Positions 700-32,130 of a stretch of 36,744 nt of DNA are shown piece by piece (within the stretch, counting starts at the first letter, position 1; the number at the start of each line of letters is the position of its first letter). A program made the translations under genes and the position numbers. The notes below the pieces were generated by a model. The model ran no database searches and was not told the origin of the DNA. It saw only the letters and a program-made list of their open reading frames with translations. The DNA comes from a virus: positions 1 through 36,744 of the IMG/VR virus record IMGVR_UViG_3300017971_000528; one strand, given 5' to 3'.

Positions 700-1122
700 T
701 TGACCGAAGGTAATTCAAAATTAAGTCGCGAATCGGCCGAAGAACAATTCAATTTGTTCATGGATTATTACGACATTGATCCCGAAGATTGGGCCGATTC
801 TTTGCAAGTCCCTTTTCAAACCGCTAAAAATCGATTGATTCGCGCTATTACGAAAGGGAATCTTTCTATTGAAGCGGGCGATCCGATTCGGATTGTTCAA
901 ATCTTGATCAAGCCGAAAGGGGATACGACTGAATTGGTTTATTCGGAAATGTCGGGCCGGGCGAAGGTTGCCATGAAAGGGAAGGACGAAACCGATACCT
1001 TCGGCAAGATATATGCGCTTGTTGGATCCTTAACCGGGTTGGGGGAAACAGCTATAACCCGATTAACCGGCGCAGATATGTCAATCGCGGAATCGATAGG
1101 GTTACTTTTTTTACAAATATAG
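700..1122 (+). CDS. Tail assembly chaperone, short (gpG-like) product
   Basis: A 140-residue acidic, helical protein located between the tail tube and tape measure genes, the invariant place of the tail assembly chaperone, which coats the tape measure protein during tail polymerisation. The start is TTG at 700, preceded by AGGGGG at good spacing; the next in-frame ATG is 20 codons in and would lose conserved-looking sequence. The frame closes at TAG 1120-1122, immediately after a slippery T-TTT-TTA heptamer. Ribosomes that slip back one base make the longer product listed separately. Confidence 0.8.
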   Translation: MTEGNSKLSRESAEEQFNLFMDYYDIDPEDWADSLQVPFQTAKNRLIRAITKGNLSIEAGDPIRIVQILIKPKGDTTELVYSEMSGRAKVAMKGKDETDTFGKIYALVGSLTGLGETAITRLTGADMSIAESIGLLFLQI

Positions 1123-17263: not shown

Positions 17264-19273
17264 TTACTTTCTAAACCTTTCGCCGATCCATCCGTCGGCC
17301 TTAATCGGCATCCCGGCCGCCCACGATGGAACAATAGACATTATCGAAATCATTTCTTCAAGCCGATCGTCGCCTTTATCGACTTCAACCATTATTTCAT
17401 CGTGTACGGTTAGAATTATCTTGAATCCGGCGCGATCAAGATTCAACATAGCTATTACCAATAGGTCGCGACAAAGCGCCTGGATAACGTTTTCGACAAG
17501 TTTTCCGCCATGGGTCGGAACGCGATGCGGGCCGCCGCCGTCGGTCTTAATATACGTTATCGATTTCTTATATTCTCCCCATGGGGTTAATACTTCCCGA
17601 ATATCCGGCCGGAAGTAATGAAGAACGCGCCCGGATGGTAATTTGCATTTAAGAAAGCCGCTGTTTACCGTATATTTAAACGCGCGATATGAAGTTATCG
17701 TTCCGGGGTTCTTTAACGCTTTCATGGCGGCCGACTCCAAGGCGCGCCAAAATTTAGTCGTTTCCGGCCGAATTTCGCGCCATGGGGCAACGATCCCATG
17801 ATATATTTCTTCGTCGGTTCCCGTTCCGCCGAATTGACGAACGGCCGCGATCGATCCGCCGTAACCACAAGCAAGTTCCGCGATCTTTCCCGGCGATTGG
17901 CGCTCCTTATCCGTTATCGAATCATAGGGTTTATTCAGGATCATCGCCGCCGCGACTTTATACATATCGGAACCGCTTCGATACGCGTTTAAAACCCATT
18001 CTTCACCGGCCGCCCACGCTAAACCGACGCCTTCTATCGACGAATAATCCGCGTTAAGGAATTGTTTTCCCGTCGCGGCTTTAACACTTCCGCGGATACA
18101 CTTGGACGCCATGAAGAACGGGTCGTCGTATTCTTCTTTTAACCGTTCATCTTGACCGGTAATAATATATTCCATGACTTTATGATAATCATCTTCGCCG
18201 TATGAGTCCCGCGGTAAGTTTTGAAACTGGATTCCGCGCCCGGCGAACCGGCCGGTCGCCGCGCCATGGTATAAAGTCGCGCCGCGAACGCGGTTATCCG
18301 CCGATGCTCGATTAACCATTCCTTTGAACTTTGCCGTTGACGATTTAGCAAGTTCGGCCTTGATTTTTAGGACTTCGGAAACAATAGTCGGAAGGTTATC
18401 CCGTTCAAGTAATTCTGTTACGGCGTCGTTTGATACGCTTTGAATATTTAACCCGGTTTTTTCGTTGATCCAATCCTTCAAGGCGACATACGACCGCGGG
18501 CCGGAAACTTTTCCGTCGGTCAATACGGCGAAGCGGCCTTGTTGTTCCGCTTCGCGTTTCTCAAGGATCGACGTCAAGATTTTAACGGATTCCATATCAA
18601 TCGGGATCCCGGCCAAATTGATTTTTTGATCTAATAACCAAACGGCGCGTTCGTTGGCCGGAAGTTTCGGCAACGTATGGAAAAGAAGGCGTTCGGTTTC
18701 GACATCTTTCCCGCAATAATTAAAAAGGATTTCAAGTTCGTGCCGGGCTTCGTGCCAATATATTTTCGACATCCATTCGGGATCGTTGGCTTTCTCGCGC
18801 TTCCAAGCCTGTCGGGGTTTACATAATTTCATCATTACCCGATGACCTTCTTTATCTTTTTGGACGGCAAGGTTTAAAATGCTTGAAGCGCTGTCCAGGT
18901 TCAAAGGTAATGCATGATAGGCGCATTGGGCCATAGTATCGTAAACCTTCGCCATGGGTAAAACCGGCCAACCTAAAATATCCCGGAACTTTTTATTCCA
19001 TCCGACATATTCAAACATCGAATTATGCGCGATTATCCGGTCGGCCGCCTGGATTAAATGGATCACTTCCGCCGGGGATCCGATTTCATATATTAGGTTT
19101 TCCGGGTTGACTAATTTTAAAAACTTATCCGGGATTAGAAGTTTCGCGGGGTTATTGTCTATCGCGTAACCCAAACACATAATTTCCGTTAATGGGTCGC
19201 TGAAATAGACAAATAACCCGCGATCCTTCAAATCGACCGGGCTTCGAGTTTCGAAGTCGATCGTCAAATCCAT
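17264..19273 (-). CDS. Family A DNA polymerase with 3'-5' exonuclease
   Basis: A 669-residue replicative polymerase. The exonuclease domain has TIDFETRS with D6 and E8, then IIAHNSMFEY (N84) and YCGKD (D190). The polymerase domain has motif A NADYSSIE (D409), motif B PGKIAELACGYG (K463, Y471) and motif C VHDE (H624, D625, E626), so all catalytic residues are present. There is no 5' nuclease domain, as usual for phage enzymes. The residue equivalent to E. coli Phe762 is Leu467. AAGGGG precedes the ATG. It is the second-last gene of the minus-strand operon, behind its SSB-like partner. Confidence 0.95.
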   Translation of the reverse strand: MDLTIDFETRSPVDLKDRGLFVYFSDPLTEIMCLGYAIDNNPAKLLIPDKFLKLVNPENLIYEIGSPAEVIHLIQAADRIIAHNSMFEYVGWNKKFRDILGWPVLPMAKVYDTMAQCAYHALPLNLDSASSILNLAVQKDKEGHRVMMKLCKPRQAWKREKANDPEWMSKIYWHEARHELEILFNYCGKDVETERLLFHTLPKLPANERAVWLLDQKINLAGIPIDMESVKILTSILEKREAEQQGRFAVLTDGKVSGPRSYVALKDWINEKTGLNIQSVSNDAVTELLERDNLPTIVSEVLKIKAELAKSSTAKFKGMVNRASADNRVRGATLYHGAATGRFAGRGIQFQNLPRDSYGEDDYHKVMEYIITGQDERLKEEYDDPFFMASKCIRGSVKAATGKQFLNADYSSIEGVGLAWAAGEEWVLNAYRSGSDMYKVAAAMILNKPYDSITDKERQSPGKIAELACGYGGSIAAVRQFGGTGTDEEIYHGIVAPWREIRPETTKFWRALESAAMKALKNPGTITSYRAFKYTVNSGFLKCKLPSGRVLHYFRPDIREVLTPWGEYKKSITYIKTDGGGPHRVPTHGGKLVENVIQALCRDLLVIAMLNLDRAGFKIILTVHDEIMVEVDKGDDRLEEMISIMSIVPSWAAGMPIKADGWIGERFRK

Positions 19274-19282
19274 AATTTCCCC

Positions 19283-20176
19283 TTAAAACGGCGCGTCGTC
19301 GTTAATAGAGGGGTTCTGAACCGGGGCCGACGTTGGATAGGGGTTCGCCTGTTGACCGGCCGGAATCGCCGGATTTGAAGCGGGAACCGGGTTAAATCCG
19401 GGATTCCCGGCCGGGTTTGTCGCCGGAATTGTCGGGTTCGGGGTCATTTGGGTCGGAAGCGGGGCCGATTGACCGGCAAATCCTTGATTTTGGGCCGCCG
19501 GGGGCTGAAATCCTGGATTCTGGCCGGGTATCTGGCTGGGCGCTTGTCCTTGCATGGTTGCCGGATTGGGCGCGTAATTAGCCGGATTTTGAGCGCCGGA
19601 CGGGCCGCCGAACATTTCTTCAGCCGACTGTTTCTTTCGACCAGCAAAAGGTTCGTCGTCGCGGGCGAACCGGGCCGCGTTAATCTGGAAAGAAATTCCC
19701 TTGCCGGAATTGTTGTCATATGGCCACGGATGGATATTTGCTTGGATCCAGCATCCCGGATAAATCTTCGCTGGGTTCAAAATCGCCTGATTGTTTTCGT
19801 CGAAAACGTCGGGTTTATCCCGGTTTGACGTCGATATAATCCAGTGACCAGCATATTCCGGGTTTTTCTCAACAACCGGGATGCGATCCTTTTGACCGGC
19901 GGAAACGTCGGCGTCTTTTATGGGGGAAAATTCATTCCCGACGATCGGGTTCCGGGGCCGGTTTGCCGGATCCGGCCATTTGTCAATTATCAATTGGTTA
20001 ACGATTTGGTAAAGCGAATTCAGATATTCACGGGCGGCCGGATCTGCTTTATTGAAAAGCAGGATGACCGAATATTTCGGTTCTTCGTCGCTTCCTTTGC
20101 TAAAGGTTTTCGGTTTAAAAAGATTCGGATACGAAATCCGAACGGGCGGCGTTGTTGTTGCGATTGCATCAGCCAT
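19283..20176 (-). CDS. DUF2815 ssDNA-binding protein with SSB-like C-terminal tip
   Basis: A 297-residue protein. Residues 1-175 fit DUF2815, an OB-fold ssDNA-binding family of phages: RISYPNLFKPKTF, PKYSVILLFNK, PAKIYPGCWIQANIHPWPYD. The tail of about 115 residues is Pro/Asn/Gln/Ala-rich and disordered, and ends NDDAPF, very like the DDDIPF tip by which bacterial SSB recruits partner enzymes. SAEEMFG at residues 184-190 recurs in the DUF2800 nuclease and the primase. It lies between the nuclease and polymerase genes, matching a replisome role. Confidence 0.88.
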   Translation of the reverse strand: MADAIATTTPPVRISYPNLFKPKTFSKGSDEEPKYSVILLFNKADPAAREYLNSLYQIVNQLIIDKWPDPANRPRNPIVGNEFSPIKDADVSAGQKDRIPVVEKNPEYAGHWIISTSNRDKPDVFDENNQAILNPAKIYPGCWIQANIHPWPYDNNSGKGISFQINAARFARDDEPFAGRKKQSAEEMFGGPSGAQNPANYAPNPATMQGQAPSQIPGQNPGFQPPAAQNQGFAGQSAPLPTQMTPNPTIPATNPAGNPGFNPVPASNPAIPAGQQANPYPTSAPVQNPSINDDAPF

Positions 20177-20399
20177 TTTTTTTACCTTCCTTTTCGTGTC
20201 TAAAGTGGTTACATTTGGTTAGTCCGTCGGAAAGACCTTTCTTCCGAACGGTATGACAATACATTAATTTACTTTCGCCGGTTAACAAGTTGACTTCATA
20301 GTTCATTCCGCATTTCCATTTTTTAACGCGGGTAAAGAATCCGCGCTTACAGTGCGCGCATTGAAAACAATAAACGTCATGAATCGCGGGAATAACCAT
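20169..20399 (-). CDS. Small zinc-binding protein (76 aa)
   Basis: A 76-residue Cys/His-rich protein: VYCFQCAHCKRGFF, then VKKWKCGMNYEV and CHTVRKKGLSDGLTKCNHFR. Seven Cys and several His could bind one or two zinc ions. AAAGGA lies before the ATG, and its end overlaps the DUF2815 gene by 8 nt. The position between nuclease and ssDNA-binding protein suggests a replication or recombination accessory; no family recognised. Confidence 0.7.
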   Translation of the reverse strand: MVIPAIHDVYCFQCAHCKRGFFTRVKKWKCGMNYEVNLLTGESKLMYCHTVRKKGLSDGLTKCNHFRHEKEGKKNG

Positions 20400-20402
20400 T
20401 GG

Positions 20403-21584
20403 TTAGGATCCTTTCGCCGGGCCGAACAATTCTTCGGCGGATTTGTTTTGCGCGGGCCGCTTGTCTTCAACCGGGACCAATTTCCGACCGTGAAAAATAT
20501 TGATATGAGGCGATAAGAATTTAACGGCGGTTTTTCCGTCGATTCCCGATCGCTTTAATACTTCAAGAATCTTTGCGGGGCTTTTCAATTCCGGGTCGGT
20601 TAATATACTATCGGCAAGATTCATTTGTGAAAGGACTTCCTCTATTGATTTCGGATCCTTCCAAGACTTTGTTCCGCGTCCTTGAACCATTTTAAAACCG
20701 TCAAGACGATTTCCAGCTTTGAACCGATCCAGCGCGACTTTATAAATTTCTGCCGATAGGTTTCGGATAACCGCTTCGATTCGCATTAGTTCGCCTAGCG
20801 ATTCGTTATCCAGGATGGATGGTTTCGGATGGATACCGGGTTCGACGGGGATCCCGCGCCGGTTGGTTGTTATTCTTAGTAATTGAAAAATCATTTTTAA
20901 AATCTCCGGGCAAATTATAAGCGCTTGACAATATTCACAATGCGGGCCGGGCGTCGCCTTCGGATTCCGGCCGCGGATTTCTTTTAACGCGGGATTTACG
21001 ACGTCGTTTTTCCATTCGATTAGTTCATTTACGGGAATCAATTTTCGGCGAACGTATCCTTCAGGATGCGACGCGCGCGGTTGTATTATTCCCAAATCAA
21101 CTTCTTTAGCTTCAAATGGATTAGTTTCGCCAATAAAGCCTAACGCATAAAATTTAACTTGTGCCGAATCCGGTTCGATAATCTTCCGACCGTATTTTAA
21201 ATCATTGATAAAAATAATCCGCTTCGGGATTATAACCGCGTGGTCGGCTGTTCCCGATACGCCGGAAAACAAGCGAAGTCGCCTTTCGATAAATATCAAA
21301 GGGTTTGGAAACAAGCGTTCAATTCGTTTCGCTTCGTCAACATATAGCTGAACGAAAGACGCCATTTCGGACGATACTTCGAAAGGGGTTCCTTCCACAT
21401 AACCGCGGCGGCCTTGGTATTCAATACATTTCTGGTTACGTTTAATACATTGTTCGCCTAAGTTATGCGCGAAGGTTCCTTCCTTCGCTTCCGGGCCGGA
21501 AACCGATGGACCCATAAAAGATGATCGCAACGGCGACGCGTGGCATTTTAAAAACCTTGGACTTCCCGAAGCGGATAATTCCAT
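20403..21584 (-). CDS. DUF2800 RecB/Cas4-like PD-(D/E)XK nuclease
   Basis: A 393-residue protein of the DUF2800 family. An opening ELSASGSPRFLKCHAS is followed by the nuclease core: GTADHAVI (D114), FINDLKYG (D128, K130) and QVKFYAL (Q142, Y146), the RecB-type arrangement. Cys residues in PHCEYCQALIICPE suggest the iron-sulphur or zinc site common in Cas4-like enzymes. The C-terminal tail ends NKSAEELFGPAKGS, sharing a motif with two other replication proteins. It probably processes DNA ends during replication or recombination next to the SNF2 helicase. Confidence 0.85.
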   Translation of the reverse strand: MELSASGSPRFLKCHASPLRSSFMGPSVSGPEAKEGTFAHNLGEQCIKRNQKCIEYQGRRGYVEGTPFEVSSEMASFVQLYVDEAKRIERLFPNPLIFIERRLRLFSGVSGTADHAVIIPKRIIFINDLKYGRKIIEPDSAQVKFYALGFIGETNPFEAKEVDLGIIQPRASHPEGYVRRKLIPVNELIEWKNDVVNPALKEIRGRNPKATPGPHCEYCQALIICPEILKMIFQLLRITTNRRGIPVEPGIHPKPSILDNESLGELMRIEAVIRNLSAEIYKVALDRFKAGNRLDGFKMVQGRGTKSWKDPKSIEEVLSQMNLADSILTDPELKSPAKILEVLKRSGIDGKTAVKFLSPHINIFHGRKLVPVEDKRPAQNKSAEELFGPAKGS

Positions 21585-21602: not shown

Positions 21603-22505
21603 TTAGTCTTTGTAATTTTCCAAAGCGATAATAAAATCATGATATTTTTCCTGAGGGATCGCGGCGATCATATTCGCGCCGGTCGATTCAATCATGATTT
21701 TCTGTAACAACGCCAACGTTCCTTTTTCGCCGCCGTCCTTCTGGCCGCGGCCGGAATAGAACTTCCCGGCGGCCGCGTCGACTTCGCTTCGAGTATGGGG
21801 GATAAAGGTCGGGTAATTGACGCCGTTAACCGTTACTTTGTCCGTTAATCCAAACGGGTTCGGCGCGTCTACGGTTCCGGTTTCCGGGGATTGGGGAATC
21901 GGTTCGCCGGTCAACGGGTTGATTCCCGCGTTTATCTGGTCGACGGCCGCGGGGCCGGTCGCGCCCGTCGGGCCGGTTGCTTGCCCGGCGAAGGGGTTCG
22001 CGGGATCCGGCGCTTCCGTCGGGCCGCCGGTAACGACGGCGGTTCCGGCCGTTTCCGGGCTTGTTCCGGCGGCCGCGGCGGCGTCAAATTTCTGAAGCGC
22101 TTTCACATATGTTGATTTTCGAGTTCCGCTTTTTTGAGGAATGCCGCGTTGACTTGCTAGTTCCTTCAATTGTCCAAGTTCCATGGTTTCATAATTGGGA
22201 AATTCAGGACCGGGAACGGCCGGGCCGGTTGCTGGCGGAACGATTGACGGATCCGGCGGAACCATTCCGGGCGCGCCTTCCGGCGGCGTTGCGGCCGATC
22301 GGTTATCAACGATTTCGTTCATAGCATGTTCGAAGATATGTTCCGCCGTTACGCCGACTGATTTCTGATATGCTTCCGACATTTTTTCTTGTGAAACGAC
22401 AAAGCGTTCAAGGGAAGACACTAAGCGTTCTAACAGGTCGATTAAAGCCATTCGATTTCCTTTCTTTAGTAACAAGATTAGTAATTTAACGATACGTTTT
22501 AACAT
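21603..22505 (-). CDS. SAP/LEM-like helix protein with low-complexity linkers
   Basis: A 300-residue protein. Residues 103-140 (METMEL-like start, then LGQLKELASQRGIPQKSGTR and KSTYVKALQKF) look like a SAP or LEM helix-extended DNA-binding element. On both sides are Pro/Gly/Ala-rich disordered linkers. The C-terminal 80 residues are folded-looking and end IIALENYKD. Two in-frame starts both have good ribosome sites: ATG 22505 (giving a basic hydrophobic MLKRIVKLLILLLKKGNR leader) and ATG 22451. A DNA-binding replication accessory is likely. Confidence 0.7.
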   Translation of the reverse strand: MLKRIVKLLILLLKKGNRMALIDLLERLVSSLERFVVSQEKMSEAYQKSVGVTAEHIFEHAMNEIVDNRSAATPPEGAPGMVPPDPSIVPPATGPAVPGPEFPNYETMELGQLKELASQRGIPQKSGTRKSTYVKALQKFDAAAAAGTSPETAGTAVVTGGPTEAPDPANPFAGQATGPTGATGPAAVDQINAGINPLTGEPIPQSPETGTVDAPNPFGLTDKVTVNGVNYPTFIPHTRSEVDAAAGKFYSGRGQKDGGEKGTLALLQKIMIESTGANMIAAIPQEKYHDFIIALENYKD

Positions 22506-30045: not shown

Positions 30046-32130
30046 ATGGAAACGAATCCCGCGTTGAAAATGGCGCTTCATTATGCGTCAAAAGGTTGGT
30101 ATGTTTTCCCGGTCGGCTTGAATAAAAAGCCTTTCGCCGGGTTTGATTGGGGAAAAGATAAATTAGCGACAATTGATCCTGATAAAATTCACGAATACGC
30201 CGCAAAGTATCCCGGTTGCAATTGGGCGCTTGATTGCGGCCGAAGTAACAAGTTCGTTCTTGACGTCGATATGAAGCATGGGAACAACGGATTCGCGGAA
30301 TTAGCCAAATATACAAAATCCGCGGATACCAATTACAAGGTTAGAACGCCAAATGGCGACGGGTATCATTATCATTATGAAGGATTAGGCTTAACGAAAG
30401 CCGATGAACTTCCCGGCCTGGATTCGCGTTCCCTTGGCGGATACGTCTTGATTCCCGGATCAATCGCAAAAGACGAAGTAACCGGCGAATGGAAGCGATA
30501 CGAACTTGTCGAAGATGGTCCGTTGGGCGCTATACCTGAATGGATGCCGAAAGTCTTCACCGAACGAAAAGAAGTTCAACAGCTTCCGACGCCTGAAGGC
30601 TTTACTTTCGACGAACCGCATAACGTTACTAGAGTAACGGAATGGTTAAAAAATCAACCGCCGATTCAAAAAGGATCCAGGAATAACAGCCTTTTCAATA
30701 TGGCTTGCCAAATGAAGGATTTCGGGCTTTCAGAGGGCAAAACGTTGGAACTTCTATCCCTTTGGAATCTCGAACGCGTTTATCCGCCGGTCAAGGATCG
30801 GGAACTTCAGATAATTTGCAATTCCGGCGCGAAGTCAAAACATAGCGCGCCCGGATCCAAAACGCCGGAAGCGATGTTCGGCGCGCCCGCGATAATCGTT
30901 CCGCCGCCGAAAGTTGATTTTACCAATATGACGGAAGACGAACTTGACCGGCTTTACGGCTGGGGGAAGGCGGGATCGATCGCGGCCGGGTTGAAATGTA
31001 TTAATCAAAAAGATTTCTCCACCATTCCCCAACGTGAATTCTTACTTCAGAATCGTTTCGCGCCGGGTTTTGTTACGGCGACGATCGCGCCCGGCGGCGT
31101 CGGAAAATCTTCCTTTTCAATTCTCGAAGCGTTGGCCGTTGCGACCGGGCGAAACTTAACCTTTAATGAAGTTATCGAAACGGGACCGGTTATACTTTTT
31201 AATATGGAAGATCCTGAAGTTGAAATTGAACGCCGGTTAGCCGCGGCTTTTATTTATCATGGTATTGATAAAACGAAATGTCATAACATTTATCATTTTT
31301 CCGCGCGTAACCGGGAAAAAATATTTTGTGGGGATCTAACCGGACAAACGGCGACGATCAACGATCAAACCGTTAACGAAACAATTTACATATTAAAGAA
31401 ATTAAAAGCGCGGCTGTTAATAATCGATCCTTTTATCGGATCCCATAATTTAAATGAAAATGACAATATGCATATTTACGCCGTCGCCGAAGTTTTCCGG
31501 TATATCGCCGAAGAAACTTACGCCGCGGTTTCGTTGGTTCATCACGCGCGGAAAAAGTCATCCGATTCGGGCCGGGGGGAACTTGATTCAGCGCGTGGCG
31601 CGTCGGCGCTGGGCGCGGCTTGCCGGATTGCTCATACTCTGGATTATATGTCGGAAAAGGAAGCGGGGCCGGATAAATATAATATTCCGGGCGGCGCGGA
31701 TCGCCGTCGTTGGCATATCAGTTTAAACAGCGCAAAGATGAATTTAGGCGAAGAATCTTCGTCGAATCAATGGTATGGAAAAGGGTCGGTCAAATTGCAA
31801 GAATCCCATACTCAAACCGTCCAGGCATTCTTTAAAGAAACGCTTTCCGAAGTTGAAACCCGGCCGCCGGAAAACGAACTTCTTTGTCAAATTCATAACG
31901 CGATCGATGACGATAAAGAATATTCTTTTACCGAATTAAAGCGTATGGCGACCGAAAATAACTTCGTTGATAAAAGTTCCGGGATGATCCTAAAATATCT
32001 AAATAAGATATTTGAAAAAGATTTTATCCTAGAAAATAAACAATATCATGTATTAGCTAAACCGGCTAAAACGAATCCTAAGAATTTCACAACCTACATA
32101 TTAAGAACGAAAATAAACGATAATGTTTAA
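30046..32130 (+). CDS. Bifunctional primase-polymerase / RepA-like helicase
   Basis: A 694-residue replication initiator. The N-terminal Prim-Pol domain has KGWYVFPVGLNKKPF, the metal-binding DVD (73-75), GDGYHYHYEG (His108, His110) and LDSRSLGGYVLIPGS. A middle helical part and linker (TPEAMFGAP, 273-281) lead to a RecA-like ATPase of RepA/AAA_25 type: Walker A APGGVGKSS (348-356), Walker B LLIIDPF, and VSLVHHARK. It would prime and unwind DNA at the origin. The gene is followed directly by an iteron region, the pattern of self-contained replicons. AGGTG precedes the ATG. Confidence 0.92.
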   Translation: METNPALKMALHYASKGWYVFPVGLNKKPFAGFDWGKDKLATIDPDKIHEYAAKYPGCNWALDCGRSNKFVLDVDMKHGNNGFAELAKYTKSADTNYKVRTPNGDGYHYHYEGLGLTKADELPGLDSRSLGGYVLIPGSIAKDEVTGEWKRYELVEDGPLGAIPEWMPKVFTERKEVQQLPTPEGFTFDEPHNVTRVTEWLKNQPPIQKGSRNNSLFNMACQMKDFGLSEGKTLELLSLWNLERVYPPVKDRELQIICNSGAKSKHSAPGSKTPEAMFGAPAIIVPPPKVDFTNMTEDELDRLYGWGKAGSIAAGLKCINQKDFSTIPQREFLLQNRFAPGFVTATIAPGGVGKSSFSILEALAVATGRNLTFNEVIETGPVILFNMEDPEVEIERRLAAAFIYHGIDKTKCHNIYHFSARNREKIFCGDLTGQTATINDQTVNETIYILKKLKARLLIIDPFIGSHNLNENDNMHIYAVAEVFRYIAEETYAAVSLVHHARKKSSDSGRGELDSARGASALGAACRIAHTLDYMSEKEAGPDKYNIPGGADRRRWHISLNSAKMNLGEESSSNQWYGKGSVKLQESHTQTVQAFFKETLSEVETRPPENELLCQIHNAIDDDKEYSFTELKRMATENNFVDKSSGMILKYLNKIFEKDFILENKQYHVLAKPAKTNPKNFTTYILRTKINDNV

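Follow-up and report, generated by a model that had tools for sequence, protein, structure and literature searches.

A short docking motif shared by the single-stranded DNA-binding protein, nuclease and primase-helicase of a phage replication module, with a groove of the DNA-binding protein as its probable socket

The window analysed here is the whole 36,744-nucleotide stretch of viral DNA recorded as IMGVR_UViG_3300017971_000528, and the element in question is a heptamer, SAEEMFG, that follows the core of its single-stranded DNA-binding protein (SSB) and recurs in similar form in two further proteins, a nuclease and a primase-helicase. We consider it fairly likely that this heptamer represents a short docking motif, of approximate form [ST]-[AVP]-[ED]-x-(D/E or A/M/L/V)-aromatic, that belongs to a replication/recombination module and has a groove of the SSB as its common socket. 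As read from the sequences of relatives, the motif was shown to lie after the oligonucleotide/oligosaccharide-binding (OB) fold of the SSB, in the C-terminal tail of the nuclease and in a linker of the primase-helicase (of VapE type, and of Prim-Pol type at least in Roseobacter phage RDJL3), and to co-vary phage by phage; we infer that the two partner proteins insert their copies into the same groove. The carriers and their copies in the window are as follows.

19283..20176, minus strand: DUF2815 / Enc34-type (T7 gp2.5-like) SSB of 297 amino acids (aa), assigned by PF10991 and phrog_112; motif carrier and proposed receptor
19607..19627, minus strand: motif copy 1, SAEEMFG, SSB residues 184-190, immediately C-terminal to the OB fold
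20403..21584, minus strand: DUF2800 PD-(D/E)XK nuclease (RecB/Cas4-like exonuclease) of 393 aa, assigned by PF10926, PDDEXK_1 and phrog_69
20421..20441, minus strand: motif copy 2, SAEELFG, residues 382-388 in the C-terminal tail of the nuclease
30046..32130, plus strand: primase-helicase of 694 aa, with domain matches to Prim-Pol, PriCT_1 and AAA_25
30862..30882, plus strand: motif copy 3, TPEAMFG, primase-helicase residues 273-279; the least secure copy when judged from the window alone

All three heptamers were confirmed at the residues and coordinates where the original prediction, made from the bare sequence, had placed them, and a six-frame scan of the window for [ST].[ED].[MLI]FG matched these three places only. 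By profile over its OB fold, the window SSB is a DUF2815 family member: PF10991 (Enc34_ssDNA-bd) matches residues 8-190 (E=1.9e-30), ending on the last residue of the motif, and the PHROG match is phrog_112, gp2.5-like; the PF10991 family profile also matches the solved structures 4JG2, 4KLK, 5ODJ and 5ODK. The nuclease is likewise, by profile, a DUF2800 family member with a PD-(D/E)XK domain (PF10926, E=7.2e-52; PDDEXK_1, 3.8e-05; phrog_69, exonuclease). The copy in the primase-helicase sits in the linker between PriCT_1 (residues 205-263) and AAA_25 (residues 323-505).

Similarity to the SSB heptamer was scored by BLOSUM62 over the 54 proteins (11634 aa) of the window and over 300 shuffled window proteomes. 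The nuclease copy scores 32, above all 300 shuffled proteomes, whose top score is 28. Another window protein (700-1119, plus strand) carries SAEEQFN at residue 12, with a score of 24 that exceeds that of the primase copy; this is probably an unrelated chance likeness.

In a start set of seven phages (the window plus six diverse ones), the aromatic of the SSB motif is invariant and matching peptides lie close to the nuclease C-terminus. A widened set comprised 230 sequences, that is, the window and 229 loci (L numbers below) from IMG/VR, GTDB genomes and named phages, in which our own hidden Markov models matched SSB in 229, nuclease in 223, polymerase in 224, SNF2 helicase in 161, VRR-NUC in 157 and VapE in 139. 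L001, a piece of the window, was left out of all scans of this set; L002 and L215, which represent the window's own phage, were left out of the co-variation and residue-6 column tests; and nuclease genes with no stop inside the locus were left out of the nuclease co-variation, frequency and −1 class tests. L002 and L215 stem from a longer IMG/VR contig (48,443 bases) whose SSB and polymerase proteins are 100% identical to those of the window; it is apparently another record of one and the same phage. As a single query the window SSB found only this other contig, and the window polymerase found it plus one relative at 30% identity.

The end of the SSB core was set by alignment, and the first F or W beyond it was read as the motif aromatic. 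Of 229 SSBs, 228 have such a motif behind the OB fold; the one without (L156) is truncated. Position −4 relative to the aromatic is A in 190 of the 228 and position −1 is D or E in 199, counts that precede a correction by which two picks (L146 and L108) were shifted to the next aromatic; the aromatic itself is F except for a W in Salmonella phage Chi (227 against one), and Enc34 has Y. Among dereplicated loci, a strict pattern (A..[DE]F or [ST][AVP][EDQ].[MLA][FW]) was found in 48 of 59 SSBs, 42 of 58 nuclease C-tails and 23 of 33 VapE linkers, compared with, for other genes, 13 of 871 C-tails and 11 of 871 random pieces 65 residues long; for the C-tails of the other replication proteins the numbers are 0/55 (polymerase), 0/37 (SNF2) and 1/37 (VRR). 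A broad pattern was found in 57/59, 51/58 and 29/33 of the three carriers, respectively, and elsewhere in 7/55 polymerase, 1/37 SNF2 and 4/37 VRR tails, 142/871 other C-tails and 202/871 random pieces. The motif is thus neither absent from homologues nor equally common in other genes, and the proposal that it docks on a common partner is supported by its same place in each family, its near-invariant aromatic and its rarity elsewhere, as well as by the co-variation of non-homologous proteins described below. Two motif-like peptides were not counted: ASxMFG of the polymerase (L003, residue 424; also L006), which lies deep inside that protein, and the N-terminal DFLFG of Vibrio-group polymerases, which was set aside likewise.

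The copies resemble each other most within a phage. For example, L182 has ITAAEAFK in both SSB and nuclease and TTAAEAFK in the VapE linker; PDAASDFG occurs in two proteins of L185; and paired copies are SVDEAFAGV and TVDEAFGGV in L213, SAEQAFG and SPEQAFG in Paenibacillus phage Pd_22F, and DAWDEDED and GAWDDED in Chi. The likeness was quantified for the 220 loci with both SSB and nuclease as the best ungapped BLOSUM62 match between the SSB motif and the last 60 nuclease residues, with row and column means removed and 10,000 permutations. At dereplication thresholds of 50, 60 and 70% SSB identity (n=18, 44 and 77), z was 6.6, 10.0 and 10.9, respectively, each with the lowest possible p (0.0001). 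Under the same scheme z stayed at 0.8, −0.7 and 1.0 for shuffled tails, −1.2, −0.1 and −0.2 for polymerase tails and −2.5, −1.2 and −0.5 for an internal nuclease segment. Tails that stop right after the aromatic (as in L003) are unable to score, and the test is therefore conservative there. In addition, SSB and nuclease have a −1 residue of the same class in 50 of 56 representatives (Fisher p=9e-5), in a table where a neutral picker chose some wrong sites that were kept as picked (for example, in L195, L208 and L226, whose motif is nonetheless visible) and from which L222 and L216, with no pickable nuclease site, were dropped.

The third carrier shows the same behaviour at the level of the family. 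VapE-type primase-helicases carry A-x-x-[DE]-F around residues 330-367, and their linkers co-vary with the SSB of the same phage (z=4.8, p=0.0001; n=39 representatives of 128 full-length VapE), with controls of 1.2 for shuffled linkers, −0.9 and 0.9 for two other segments and 1.3 for the C-tail; APSE-8, for instance, has ASVEEFDDL in its SSB and ATVDEFDDL in VapE. The Prim-Pol protein of RDJL3 (L005) aligns with the window primase-helicase over window residues 4-283, and its linker reads TPEHDFGD at the place of TPEAMFG in the window, both copies being of the class of the SSB in the same phage (AAEEDFGD in RDJL3). Judged from this window alone, the primase copy could be a chance match, as its score of 21, compared with a mean best shuffled score of 19.7, is not significant (P = 0.06 in a test within the primase). 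It is credible because, in relatives, the motif is present in VapE linkers that co-vary with the SSB of the same phage, and because the RDJL3 linker pairs with its SSB. A segment common to SSB and primase-helicase, as in T7, is seen for the family and is not significant for the window primase taken singly. In Chi, no W-type copy was found in the primase; in Vibrio phage MZH0603, the primase candidate has no M-type copy and carries KADFKDI near residue 417; and the best motif matches in the Prim-Pol proteins of L226, L220 and L217 are not significant. L219 has a Prim match and was not among the Prim-Pol proteins scored for the motif.

The best-supported candidate for the common receptor, and probably the actual one, is the SSB itself. 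Passages of the Enc34 SSB paper (PMC5686142) report single-stranded DNA binding by ORF6 and a crystal structure in which the final 11 of 199 residues are untraced and the traced C-terminal end enters a groove of the neighbour's seven-stranded sheet; they describe similar C-terminus contacts for 4JG2, 4KLK and T7 gp2.5, and the legend of Fig. 7 of that paper places the contact on the neighbour's N-terminal strands. When Chi was aligned to 5ODJ, with the numbering anchored on Trp150, Asn154 and Arg112, the motif aromatic (Tyr in Enc34) fell at residue 187. As the trace ends at 188, the inserted end is deduced to contain the motif, a deduction that combines the alignment with the paper's residue counts and applies to Enc34 only.

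A comparison that preceded the evidence from the Enc34 paper also points to the SSB, at a residue of its N-terminal strand. Six proteins were compared column by column for K/R content between phages with an acidic and those with a non-acidic residue before the aromatic, and one SSB position gave the largest difference listed among the six families.

20159..20161, minus strand: SSB residue 6 (Ala), in an N-terminal strand; candidate socket residue from the column comparison across relatives

Residue 6 is K/R in 42 of 51 acidic representatives and in 0 of 8 others, or, over loci, in 189 of 201 with an acidic motif and 0 of 25 with a non-acidic one (six of the 25 being gaps), a link that is confounded by descent, since R, Q and Q, respectively, occupy the position in L183, L158 and L184, the acidic-motif phages closest to the alanine clade. 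The non-acidic class comprises only some seven lineages in this set. AlphaFold2 places the corresponding residue in the first strand at the N-terminus. AlphaFold2 was run twice, on natural read-through translations from different phages (L060 and L190), and the readout was block confidence, which does not locate a tail. For a nuclease tail with an SSB core lacking its own motif, the motif-containing blocks reached 78 and 67, with a helix at 39-44 over the motif and the linker at 47-56 below 50; the run included conserved upstream nuclease residues that are fairly ordered themselves (blocks of 84, 86 and 73). Next to the SSB core, the nuclease tail is thus moderately ordered in this model. Because only confidence was read, the phages differed and the nuclease residues are perhaps self-ordered, the modelling is taken as supporting and not decisive. 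A fold search with the nuclease-tail/SSB model recovered the expected SSB structures, including 1JE5 (T7 type), and was uninformative on the docked tail.

These limits of the residue-6 link and of the modelling, together with the null results for primase proteins given above, weigh against docking on the SSB, as do the following points. The SNF2 C-tail control of the nuclease test was mildly positive (z 2.4 at n=12, then 1.2 at n=29 and 0.5 at n=48), and the permutations take dereplicated lineages as independent. Moreover, the DUF2815 crystal contacts may be packing: passages of the Enc34 paper ask for further evidence and describe a monomer, or possibly a transient dimer, in solution (PMC5686142).

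Two other genes of the window bear on rival receptors.

17264..19273, minus strand: family A DNA polymerase (PF00476), adjoining gene in the conserved module; disfavoured as receptor
20172-20399, minus strand: open reading frame of a 76-aa cysteine-containing protein, between the nuclease and SSB genes

The polymerase would be the common partner if the motif copies were tails that dock as in T7, an arrangement we regard as unlikely. The polymerase was matched in 224 of 230 sequences, and its own C-tail is free of the strict pattern, as expected of a receptor; in passages of the T7 literature, gp4 tails bind basic patches of gp5 (PMC12593628) and the gp2.5 tail is implicated in contacts with polymerase and primase-helicase (PMC5686142). 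The polymerase column at window V416 also speaks for it, being R in 46 of 47 acidic-class representatives and V in 4 of 8 others; however, R is kept in 3 of the 8 non-acidic lineages (one is gapped), and for that reason SSB residue 6 is the better tracker of the motif class. When an SSB motif tail was modelled with the polymerase of a relative, the polymerase was well folded, yet the motif block had a mean predicted local distance difference test score of 28, with residues 1-53 below 50. In the Enc34 crystal, moreover, the segment sits on another SSB (PMC5686142). Column comparison and modelling, the latter as a prediction only, make the polymerase a disfavoured, less probable docking partner.

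Another protein of the module (SNF2 helicase, VRR-NUC or the 76-aa protein) or a host factor could be the receptor, with the SSB-SSB contacts in crystals being incidental; we give this a rather small probability. SNF2 and VRR-NUC were matched in 161/230 and 157/230 sequences, respectively, and their absence from some loci is not established because many loci are contig ends; a difference between motif classes also appears in one column of VRR and some of VapE, and SNF2 tails were weakly positive at the smallest sample, as noted. Yet no result ties a pocket of SNF2, VRR-NUC or the 76-aa protein to the motif, and the 76-aa protein has no match in Pfam or PHROG. The partner is probably none of the three candidates suggested at the outset, namely the polymerase (the one of them covered by the modelling), the SNF2 helicase and the 76-aa protein, but the SSB.

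That the heptamers are alike by chance or composition, as pieces of disordered, charged segments, is very improbable. The window primase copy is within shuffled expectation, and for that copy alone chance could still be the explanation; for the families it is rejected, since the within-phage matching depends on residue order in two protein pairs (nuclease and VapE), with shuffled tails null, and the strict pattern is so infrequent in tails of other genes. Copying of tail segments between genes by recombination or duplication, in place of a common socket holding them alike, is scarcely credible: L182 and L185 do carry near-identical peptides in three and two genes, respectively, but identical residues are encoded by different codons in 45 of 91 comparisons and share a codon in 46, against 41.3 expected from codon usage. 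These figures come from 21 copies in nine phages, picked by eye for their likeness and covering the motif codons without flanks, and within that scope codon use argues against copying of DNA between genes.

In the simplest account, one groove of the SSB serves all partners: the nuclease, the primase-helicase and adjacent SSBs would each plug into it via the same motif, and SSB-coated DNA would offer sockets at a free end or where a neighbour's tail has been released. Resection and priming would then be recruited to SSB-coated DNA by imitation of the contact within the filament, the priming helicase and nuclease copying the plug that joins one SSB subunit to the next. The regulatory step would presumably be competition between SSB-SSB and SSB-partner docking. 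In the window, plug and socket would have shifted together from the common acidic version (D/E at −1, K/R at residue 6) to a hydrophobic one (M/L at −1, A at residue 6). An even chance is given to the more general form of this proposal, an inverted SSB interactome in which the groove of the SSB core is a universal socket, the next SSB, the nuclease and the primase-helicase carry a phage-specific, co-evolving plug, and plug and socket drift jointly among acidic, alanine, methionine and tryptophan versions as a docking code private to each phage. Such a code could keep the replication proteins of co-resident phages apart and would show which replication proteins work together, and recombineering SSB/nuclease pairs would need matching plugs. 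Docking on the SSB would offer a mechanism that holds together a widespread module of SSB, nuclease and primase-helicase, would make the crystal contacts reported in 2017 functionally interpretable, and would be simple to probe, through a single aromatic per carrier and one SSB socket.

Other short tips were observed at the ends of these proteins. In 37 of the 229 SSBs the open reading frame closes with a P-x-T-G-x-P tip (INPITGQPM, for example) in place of an acidic one of -DDDFL type, and the window SSB has neither. An uncharacterised 300-aa neighbour in the window (21606-22505, minus strand) contains INPLTGEPI at residue 195, and a motif of this type also occurs in an 885-aa protein of L219; P-x-T-G-x-P is possibly a second shared short motif. 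The window SSB ends in SINDDAPF (19286-19309, minus strand), and the nuclease tails of L013, L014, L020, L021 and L205 end in DAIPFN, DAIPQF, DALPFN, EVAPF or SLPFN. The C-terminal tip of bacterial SSB is DDDIPF; by analogy, SINDDAPF and these nuclease ends resemble it and possibly serve to bind host SSB partners.

Several known systems resemble the proposed one in part. In the T7 replisome, SSB and primase-helicase have similar acidic segments that couple replisome proteins. The phage module is alike in that SSB and primase-helicase both carry the segment and the SSB is of T7-type fold (match to 1JE5); it differs in that the motif is also internal (after the OB fold and in a linker), the nuclease carries a copy, and the SSB groove is favoured over the polymerase. 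In the bacterial SSB C-terminal (SSB-Ct) hub, the SSB tail docks in pockets of partner enzymes and the motif is on the SSB tail only. SSB-centred recruitment via a short motif with an aromatic is common to both, whereas here the nuclease and primase-helicase carry the motif too and the polarity would be reversed, the partners bearing a tail-like motif and the SSB body being the proposed socket. Lambda exonuclease and Red beta form a two-component recombinase in which the nuclease is tethered to the annealing protein; a nuclease tethered to an annealing or single-stranded DNA-binding protein is the shared feature, while the folds are different and the tether here would be a short shared motif that is also present in the primase-helicase.

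As far as passages of the respective papers go, the gene module (PMC8093625), the SSB fold and crystal contacts (PMC5686142) and T7 tail coupling (PMC12593628) are already known, and the C-terminal phenylalanine of T7 gp2.5 is named in a reference title in PMC9917605. Searches of an open-access library listed no description of a motif co-evolving within phages among SSB, nuclease and primase-helicase, as judged by titles, starts of abstracts or passages. The description of the duf2800-gp2.5-polA module concerns phages of Firmicutes and extends, without data being shown, to most Gram-negative phages (PMC8093625); it is the same gene neighbourhood, and that work, in the passages considered, concerns gene context and mentions no motif. 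The DUF2815 crystals (Enc34 ORF6 5ODJ, 4JG2 and 4KLK; PMC5686142) involve the same SSB segment, the Enc34 model ending one residue beyond the aromatic; unlike the present analysis, the passages of that paper mention no sequence motif, copies in other proteins or co-variation.

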